A stretch of 33,665 nt of DNA. It comes from an uncultured Acidobacteriia bacterium (GTDB taxonomy: Bacteria; Acidobacteriota; Terriglobia; Bryobacterales; Bryobacteraceae). Location: the NCBI GenBank assembly GCA_903929755.1, contig CAIYVZ010000152.1, positions 1 through 33,665 of the forward strand. Direction: 5' to 3'. The notes under the pieces were generated by a model. It was not told the DNA's origin. It saw only the letters and a program-made list of their open reading frames with translations, and did not search any database. A program made the position numbers and the translations under genes. Shown piece by piece: positions 13,847-15,766 of this stretch (position 1 is its first letter; every line of letters starts with the position of its first letter).

Positions 13847-13862
13847 TGTTTCACGTGAAACA
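13847..13862. promoter_or_regulatory. parS site 1
   Basis: TGTTTCACGTGAAACA is a perfect 16-base palindrome matching the conserved bacterial parS consensus, bound by ParB. It lies in the mnmG-parA gap, 162 bases before the parA start. Confidence 0.95.
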
Positions 13863-13890
13863 GATATCGCCCAACCGAGACCCTAAACCC

Positions 13891-13906
13891 TGTTTCACGT
13901 GAAAGA
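13891..13906. promoter_or_regulatory. parS site 2 (one mismatch)
   Basis: TGTTTCACGTGAAAGA differs from the other sites by one base in the right arm. It lies between the mnmG stop and site 1. It may be a weaker ParB site or a decaying copy. Confidence 0.85.
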
Positions 13907-13912
13907 CTCACC

Positions 13913-15766
13913 TCAAACCAGCCCACGTGTTTCACGTGAAACACTCCTCTCAAGCCCCCCCCGTGTTTCACGTGAAACACTCAGGCTCACGTACATATCC
14001 AGAATCGCCACCGCCGCAGGCGTTACCCCCGGAATCCGCGCCGCCTGGCCCAACGTCACCGGCCCCACCGCCTTCAACTTCTCCCCAACTTCCCGCGAAA
14101 TCCCCGGAATTACCCCAAAATCCAGACCCACCGGCAACACCCGCTCGCTCGACCCCTGCAATCGCTCCACCTGACGCCGTTGCTGGTCCACATACCCGGC
14201 GTACTTTACCTCAGTTTCCACCGTCATCAACACCCCACGCTCCGCCGGACCCCCCAAAACACCCTCAACCCACTCTTTCAACTCCCCAATCTTCGATTCC
14301 GGCCGCCGCAACCACGCCGCCTTCACCCCCGTACCAAATGCCTTCACCAACGCCTCTGTCTGCACTCGCCGCCGATGAAATACCTCCAAACGCTCCTTAG
14401 AAGCCAGCCCAAGCCGCTCCGCTATCGGCGTAAGCCGCAAATCAGCGTTATCCATCCGCAAATTCAACCGGTACTCCGCCCGCGACGTGAACATCCGGTA
14501 AGGCTCGTCCGCACCCTTCGTCACCAGATCGTCCACCATAATCCCCAAATACGCCTCGCTGCGCCCCAGTTGCACCAATTCCCGACCCAGAATCTTCTGC
14601 GCGGCATTAATCCCCGCCATCAACCCCTGCCCGGCAGCCTCTTCATAACCCGACGTCCCGTTAATCTGACCCGCCAGGAACAATCCCGGCAATTTCTTCA
14701 CTTCCAGCCGATGATCCAACTCCCGCGCATCCACCGCGTCATACTCAATCGCATACCCTGGCCGAATCATCTCCGCGTCTTCCAAACCCGGTATCGACGC
14801 AATAATCGCCGCCTGCACGTCAATCGGCAGACTCGTCGACATCCCGTTCACGTAAATCTCGTTCGTGTCCAACCCCTCCGGCTCCAGAAACAGCTGGTGG
14901 TTCTCCTTGTCCGGGAACTTGACGAACTTATCTTCTATAGAAGGGCAGTACCGCGGTCCGATCCCTTCAATCTGCCCGCTGTATAACGGTGACCGCGCTA
15001 TGTTGTCCTGAATCACCTTCTTCGTGGCAGCCGTCGTCCGCGCCAAATAACACTGAATCTGCGGACGGTCAATCTTTTCCGTCAGGAACGAGAACGGAGT
15101 CGGGTCAACATCCCCGAACTGCGGCTCAAACTTCGTCCAATCAATGCTCCGGGCATCCAAACGAGGAGGCGTCCCCGTTTTCAGCCTCTTCCATCGCAAC
15201 CCCAACCCCCGAATCTGATCCGCCAGAATCTCTGAAGCTGGTTCACCATTCCGCCCACAAGAGAACTGCTTCTCCCCCACATGCGCCAAACCATTCAGGA
15301 ACGTGCCCGTAGTAATGATCACCGCCTGGCACAGAACCCGACGCCCATCCACCAACCGCACGCCCCCCACCCGACCATTCTCAATAATCAGCGAGCCCAC
15401 TTCAGCCTGCTTGATCCGGATGTTCGGCTCGCGCTCCAATACCGCTTTCATATGCGTCCGGTACTGCTTCTTGTCGCACTGCGCGCGTGGCGACCAAACC
15501 GCCGGCCCCCGGCTCGTATTCAACAGCCGAAATTGAATCCCCACCGCGTCAGTGACTTCACCCATCACCCCACCCAGCGCGTCAATCTCCCGAACCAGAT
15601 GCCCCTTGGCAATTCCACCAATCGCCGGATTGCAGGACATCTGCGCAATCAGGTCCGAATTCATCGTGATCATCGCGGTCCGCAGACCCATCCGCGCACA
15701 CGCCCGCGCAGCTTCACAACCCGCGTGACCGCCACCCACAACCACTACCTCGAATGTCAAATCCAT
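13913..15766 (-). CDS. mnmG: tRNA uridine-34 5-carboxymethylaminomethyl modification enzyme MnmG (GidA)
   Basis: MnmG binds FAD and, with MnmE, modifies the wobble uridine of certain tRNAs. The 617 residues show the FAD-binding [21 protein letters not shown] (about 7-27), the [26 protein letters not shown] segment, GTFLNGL, the second dinucleotide-associated [21 protein letters not shown] and the C-terminal RLGL... region, all characteristic. The family's conserved end is [17 protein letters not shown]; here about 24 further residues ([22 protein letters not shown]...) follow, encoded by DNA carrying two parS sites. It is divergent from purD (59 bases between) and precedes parA by 227 bases. 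Confidence 0.96.
13928..13943. promoter_or_regulatory. parS site 3, inside the mnmG 3' end
   Basis: A perfect TGTTTCACGTGAAACA palindrome lies within the coding frame of mnmG, where its minus strand encodes VSRET just before the stop codon. It is 37 bases from site 2 (start to start). Confidence 0.95.
13964..13979. promoter_or_regulatory. parS site 4, inside the mnmG 3' end
   Basis: A second perfect parS palindrome lies inside the mnmG coding frame, again encoding VSRET, 36 bases from site 3. Together sites 3 and 4 account for a repeated VSRETRG peptide at the MnmG C-terminus. Confidence 0.95.

Follow-up and report, generated by a model that had tools for sequence, protein, structure and literature searches.

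We analyzed a stretch of 33,665 nucleotides (contig CAIYVZ010000152.1; hereafter the window) from an uncultured bacterium of the family Bryobacteraceae, phylum Acidobacteriota, that carries mnmG, parA, and parB side by side, together with dnaA and gyrB (Table 1). A pattern search for the 16-bp chromosomal parS palindrome TGTTTCACGTGAAACA found three perfect copies and one copy with a single mismatch, spanning positions 13847 to 13979 and with start-to-start distances of 44, 37, and 36 bases. No further TGTTTCACGTGAAACA site with up to three mismatches was present in the window. In shuffled versions of the window, the mean number of sites was 0.04, and four were reached in none of 100 shuffles. 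The initial annotation had reported a cluster of four parS sites beside parAB, which these results bear out. At a threshold of one mismatch, the four sites are the only ones in the genome (6,855,185 bases in 212 contigs, 97.9% complete); one additional site, with two mismatches, lies on a different contig.

Table 1. Positions of genes, parS sites, and associated sequence features in the window
Feature	Position	Strand	Remarks
parB	12011-12931	-	ParB_N, HTH, and C-terminal dimerization domains
parA	12897-13685	-	Listed ORF extends to 13832; GTG start at 13685 inferred from relatives
GAGTTGTAGAAT	13801-13812	-	Between last parS and parA; also in the three closest relatives; candidate parA -10 (TAGAAT, inferred)
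parS 1	13847-13862		Perfect TGTTTCACGTGAAACA; mnmG-parA gap; aligns with last parS of L034, L035, and L019
parS 2	13891-13906		TGTTTCACGTGAAAGA, one mismatch; mnmG-parA gap, 6 bases past mnmG stop; aligns with middle parS of the three close relatives
parS 3	13928-13943		Perfect; inside mnmG, second V-S-R-E-T; copy absent from the three close relatives
parS 4	13964-13979		Perfect; inside mnmG, first V-S-R-E-T; aligns with in-frame parS of the three close relatives
Two similar units, 36 bp apart, each starting AGTGTTTCACGTGAAACACG	13910-13981	-	Seen in the sequence; one unit missing in three relatives
Coding part of the 22-residue MnmG tail	13916-13981	-	Residues 596-617, past the family models
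mnmG	13913-15766	-	617 aa; TIGR00136 score 781 bits (cut-off, 525)
dnaA	21656-22969	+	About 7.7 kb from the parS cluster
gyrB	24480-26951		After dnaA

The mnmG product is a full-length match to TIGR00136 (profile positions 1 to 613 of 616, residues 5 to 594), as expected of MnmG (GidA). Because this match reaches only residue 594 of 617 and the Pfam C-terminal bundle SAM_GIDA_C already stops at residue 589, the tail is extra to the protein family, and the earlier description of two parS sites as translated beyond the usual end of MnmG was accurate. The two VSRET motifs of the tail are encoded by the parS sites at 13964 and 13928, and both sites are read in one frame because their 36-bp spacing is a multiple of three. 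Residues 600 to 617 have a pLDDT below 50 in an AlphaFold model built from 24 sequences. Two of the four window sites are thus located within mnmG, the gene immediately upstream of parA, an arrangement like that of Thermus.

The ParB product scores above the cut-offs of the Pfam models ParB_N, HTH_ParB, and ParB_C. In the accessible text of PMC7383237, Arg 173 and Gly 201 (Caulobacter numbering) are given as marks of parS-type rather than NBS-type recognition. Judged by motif spacing, the equivalents in window ParB are R174 and G202, which points to the specificity of ParB and not Noc; in 80 aligned ParB sequences, the Arg is present in 78 (2 not covered) and the Gly in 75 (4 not covered, 1 Ser). 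Two further positions were seen to vary with the parS half-site when we compared the ParB of 76 family loci, classed as TTCCAC-type if at least half of their parS half-sites read TTCCAC. The residue before the conserved Gly (Caulobacter 201), residue 201 in window ParB, is Met in 47 of 48 TTCCAC-type loci versus 2 of 28 others, and residue 185 (184-equivalent) is Arg or Lys in 47 of 48 versus 6 of 28. Co-evolution of ParB and parS is possible; the tree has only about five to six changes, and significance is out of reach of an independent-pairs test.

Since dnaA and gyrB share the window with the parS cluster, the cluster, which parA and parB adjoin, is probably near the replication origin. We consider it very likely, as part of the overall explanation developed below, that it represents the ori-proximal parS of a chromosomal ParABS system in Acidobacteriota, and binding by ParB is predicted. 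DnaA boxes as a mark of oriC were unconvincing as a whole, with 13 matches in the window against 9.4 expected. Three DnaA-box-like words, one of them exact (TTATACACA at 23018), lie around and after the end of dnaA at 22938 to 23108; this stretch, roughly 9 kb from parS, is a candidate oriC in a window whose overall box count is not above chance.

For comparison within the family, we collected 112 loci with mnmG, comprising 80 found via the MnmG protein (L034-L113, with L112 not readable to its end), the window, counted once, and 31 found via parS-pattern and further family and genus searches. Copies of the window locus (L001-L004) and loci with no usable mnmG (L023, L024, L027, L028, and L120-L123) stand outside this set. 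The DNA pattern guided the discovery or choice of L001-L033, L114-L118, and L124-L210, so the presence of parS in these loci is certain by construction. Joining the 112 loci at 97% identity gave 97 groups, of which 84 remained after removal of 11 without readable parA and 2 with unreliable parA projection (L082 and L110). Among genomes, parS with at most one mismatch was found in 89 of 200 sampled from the family and in 17 of 19 from the genus. Some family genomes are rich in such sites (G067, 57; G062, 25; G184, 17; G105, 13; G108, 10), other sampled genomes having zero to six; locus L029 has 13 parS core sites with at most one mismatch within its mnmG-parA gap.

The gene order in the family loci is mnmG-(rsmG)-parS-parA-parB. 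Every one of the 84 non-redundant loci has one or more parS cores (no more than one mismatch) in the interval from the end region of mnmG or rsmG to parA, and the last of them precedes the alignable start of parA by 4 to 166 nt. Between mnmG and parA, rsmG was detected in 37 loci and not detected in 47. The rsmG of the window genome sits on another contig and not between mnmG and parA, which is why parS abuts the mnmG stop in the window. We found parS to overlap the coding end of the preceding gene in 38 of the 84 loci and to leave the upstream gene free in the remaining 46. Where mnmG precedes parA, the overlap affects 15 of 47 loci (parS wholly within the coding sequence in 13 and supplying the stop codon in 2), and where rsmG precedes parA, it affects 23 of 37 (19 and 4, respectively). 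On a quick MnmG tree, with weak support for 27 of its 81 inner branches and gain not distinguishable from loss, the state of parS lying inside mnmG changed at least 4 times, overlap with either gene at least 15 times, and the identity of the gene preceding parA at least 10 times.

The overlapping sites are translated in all three frames of parS, giving V[SP]R[EG]T, FHV[KE], and CSTWN, and elsewhere parS supplies the stop. Family mnmG sites comprise 16 read as V[SP]R[EG]T and 3 used as stop, while those in rsmG divide into 10 V[SP]R[EG]T, 9 FHV[KE], 2 in the third frame (CSTWN and GSTWN), and 4 stops; the third frame is open only because the TGG variant lacks TGA. The 16 in-frame mnmG sites, from 13 loci, all use the codons GTT [TC]CA CGT G[AG]A ACn. 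Given the codon usage of the gene itself, P ranges from 1e-3 down to 9e-6 per site; this test is fair only for the protein-found loci because part of the set was found by DNA. A change in parS is a change in the peptide, as in L087, which reads VPRET/VPRGT and ends VPRETLEEPLEAVPRGTC. Conversely, a comparison of MnmG tails among the 80 protein-found loci L034-L113 (L112 not readable to its end) found no V[SP]RET tail without parS; the same tail written in other codons and lacking parS, which the initial annotation had named as the case against its reading, was thus not seen in this set. The MnmG of close relatives ends in SVSRETGK, AVSRETP, or SVSRETRPADTGL, with variable tail length and other residues, and the residues around VSRET are not conserved because these proteins stop soon after the first site. 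In L012/L039, two parS sites overlap by one base (starts 15 apart) and read VSRETVSRET at the MnmG end. Taken together, these comparisons suggest that the DNA is conserved and the tail peptide is a passenger.

We studied the second in-frame copy using a four-genome alignment of the window with L034, L035, and L019. Three parS sites are common to all four genomes, one in mnmG and two after it. Invariant gap-free columns make up 46 of 51 within parS, 28 of 48 in the mnmG part, and 1 of 28 between the sites. From the in-frame site to the next shared parS, the distance is 73 bases in the window versus 38 to 42 in the relatives, making the window 31 to 35 bases longer, and the extra parS lies 36 bases from the first in-frame site. 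We infer, rather than read off directly because the excess is only 31 to 35 bases, that the second in-frame parS arose by an in-frame tandem duplication of a 36-bp unit; with a step that is a multiple of three, such a duplication would have kept the frame open.

Beyond the family, exact TGTTYCACGTGRAACA occurs in 255 of 395 genomes of the phylum, and the loci that we inspected at this level were listed or hand-picked and are non-random. In 30 loci of other families (L124-L153), whose genomes each contain a single exact consensus match, parS lies inside mnmG in 26, at the mnmG stop in 1, and after mnmG in 2, and 1 has no gene pair. Among the 26, parS is read as V[SP]R[EG]T in 24, as FHVKH in L124, and as CSTWN in L130; the latter two loci are the only ones in which a non-VSRET frame was seen inside mnmG. 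Five of these genomes, rescanned at one mismatch, still had a single site, inside mnmG in four and at the stop in one (G465, L153). In 17 of 29 mnmG-parA pairs of other families a candidate parA start falls 8 nt inside the mnmG end, so that no non-coding place is left there for parS. A 4-nt stop-start overlap of mnmG and parA was considered as a general rule for these families and rejected, being present in 3 of 29 pairs only. In 34 further stretches, parS is inside rsmG in 7, at the rsmG stop in 1, and between the genes in 5, while 21 have no mnmG/rsmG-parA pair. Overlap is the exception in a second family of the same class (f2), in whose 23 loci (L188-L210) parS lies inside rsmG in 2, between genes in 11, and elsewhere in 1, with 9 lacking a pair.

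On the promoter side, 161 bases separate the window's last parS from the inferred parA start, and a search of positions 13650 to 14100 for a consensus sigma-70 promoter found none. Across the 84 loci, the extended -10-like pattern TGnTAnnnT is present between the last parS and parA in 69, against 2.8 expected from shuffles, a control that is not fully independent because the pattern was loosened after the output of the strict form and the shuffles preserve base composition only; the strict form, TGnTA[GT]AnT, is present in 11 loci against 0.5 expected. TGnTAnnnT is missing from the window and from its three nearest relatives, which have GAGTTGTAGAAT in its place. The upstream gene stops exactly at the TAR of TGnTAnnnT in 10 loci, and nine of these ten tails end in Cys, so in several genomes parS and the promoter-like word are together read as tail and stop. 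Alignable parA starts are located within 13 nt of TGnTAnnnT in 29 of 69 loci, which suggests short or absent leaders. Because promoter-like words adjoin parS, autoregulation of parA by ParB is plausible; the repression of mnmG-parAB by ParB raised in the initial annotation is possible.

The sites, their frames, their conservation, and their recurrence are all directly observed. Very likely, the sites are ordinary ori-proximal ParB-loading sites upstream of parA, past which the stop of mnmG has drifted, leaving the tail as a by-product. By analogy with the known family, the four sites would be the loading points of ParB CTP clamps, which would slide along mnmG-parA-parB, recruit ParA and SMC, and drive chromosome segregation. 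Relatives retain parS directly upstream of parA, consistent with a parS that is fixed and gene ends that move. In the lineage of the window, the mnmG stop would have moved past one parS, insertion of parS being the alternative direction, and the in-frame duplication of the 36-bp parS unit would have added the second copy and so produced the repeated VSRET tail. Selection would hold the DNA site, whose VSRET frame happens to be free of stops, and the MnmG tail would be without function. The phrase of the initial annotation that the centromere had been written into an enzyme captures the result but reverses the emphasis, as parS stays before parA and the ends of two genes overlap it in three frames.

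The concentration on one frame could also result from a preference for the peptide. The VSRET tail would then be a functional C-terminal peptide of MnmG, making contact with, e.g., MnmE, tRNA, or ParB, and parS would be kept partly for its sake. The 16 of 16 family mnmG sites in the VSRET/VPRGT frame and the 24 of 26 V[SP]R[EG]T tails of other families fit this model, but the varied protein ends among close relatives do not, and such a parS-encoded peptide is missing from 34 of the 47 family loci in which mnmG precedes parA. Moreover, the unrelated enzyme rsmG gains the same peptides, FHVKH and CSTWN stand in their place in two mnmG genes, and the tail is outside the family models and predicted with low confidence. 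We consider a functional tail very unlikely. A different possibility is that the overlap has a regulatory purpose. Ribosomes translating mnmG across parS, together with ParB loading on this gene, would couple the enzyme, parA expression, and segregation, either by a ParB roadblock or autoregulation or by ribosomes clearing ParB near the parA start; in the several Acidobacteriota families with the sole consensus parS located in the coding end of mnmG or rsmG, translation through parS, often reaching or entering the start region of parA, would have been co-opted for this. The enrichment of TGnTAnnnT next to parS, the stops at its TAR, and the candidate parA starts inside the mnmG end are in line with such coupling, as is the proposal, in the accessible part of PMC2346475, that a parS over the -10 of the gidB promoter regulates gidB in M. 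bovis BCG. Against it, the window has no TGnTAnnnT and a long interval before parA, more than half of the family loci (46/84) show no overlap, and intragenic parS sites of P. aeruginosa cause no repression at the native ParB level according to the available text of PMC5521831. We regard a regulatory role of the overlap as unlikely.

The initial annotation had also read the even spacing of the sites as helical phasing, which would let ParB load cooperatively on sites that all look to the same side of the helix. The window spacings correspond to 4.2, 3.5, and 3.4 turns, and the signal in the relatives is weak: a period of 10.5 gives p of about 0.01 (59 spacings from 79 lineages; 0.007 for 64 spacings before thinning), but periods of 9, 11, and 11.5 give lower values (0.006, 0.005, and 0.008) in a set in which related loci remain. 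All seven periods tried, from 9 to 12, gave p values in the range of 0.005 to 0.07. We rejected helical phasing because 10.5 is thus not singled out; a common helix face is extremely improbable.

The preferred reading, a fixed parS with moving gene ends, has partial counterparts in known systems. The palindromic elements found inside protein genes of Rickettsia are mobile repeats; there, too, palindromic DNA is translated in frame, whereas parS stays put and the gene end moves. In T. thermophilus HB27, the only chromosomal parS found lies inside gidB, immediately upstream of parA (PMC4409726, accessible text). The two cases share a parS before parA inside the preceding gene, and there, too, it is the only chromosomal site found; they differ in that Thermus has one site, in gidB (rsmG), while our locus has four sites at mnmG, two of them in frame, and the overprinting is blind to frame and found in multiple lineages. 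In P. aeruginosa, nine of ten parS sites are most likely within coding sequences and parS was inactivated by recoding that left the protein unchanged (PMC4368675). The embedding of parS in genes is shared, but no new C-terminal end is described in the part of that report available to us, and the window parS encodes sequence past the usual protein end. The accessible text of PMC5521831 reports repression by native ParB beside the intergenic parS3/4 and not beside the intragenic parS1/2, and lowered expression of genes near all four sites under excess ParB. In M. bovis BCG, parS occurs both in the regulatory region of gidB and within parA, thus in the gidB-parA-parB region and beside or inside genes as here; the differences, as far as the available text of PMC2346475 goes, are the absence of a C-terminal tail and the promoter overlap with gidB. 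De novo C-termini have been described in Saccharomyces and Drosophila via stop-codon loss (PMC4494051, accessible text), likewise turning non-coding DNA into a C-terminal extension, but in our loci what is captured, repeatedly, is a functional site that is itself conserved.

We found no paper using VSRET as a word. A literature search on parS with gidA, gidB, rsmG, or mnmG, or with Acidobacteria, found no case of this overprinting beyond the Thermus gidB in the texts accessible to us, although the survey of Livny et al. 2007 may mention it. Within these sources, parS inside genes is common and parS inside gidB before parA is known; no account of recurrent C-terminal tails, in two genes and three frames, was found there. 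The loci provide a natural experiment on overlapping information: the genes of two unrelated enzymes contain a near-fixed DNA word that is translated in all three frames, and the peptide tracks the DNA. They show how a cis-acting site that the cell requires can give conserved enzymes new C-terminal sequence. They also caution against taking recurring tails such as VSRET, VPRGT, and FHVKH for functional peptides. In uncultured Acidobacteriota, such tails also mark the place of parS and with it the origin region. A bin titled Bordetella parapertussis (L077, CALQCC020000004.1) carries an mnmG-rsmG-parAB locus whose MnmG groups with that of a Bryobacterales bin (L084), and the record is probably mislabeled.
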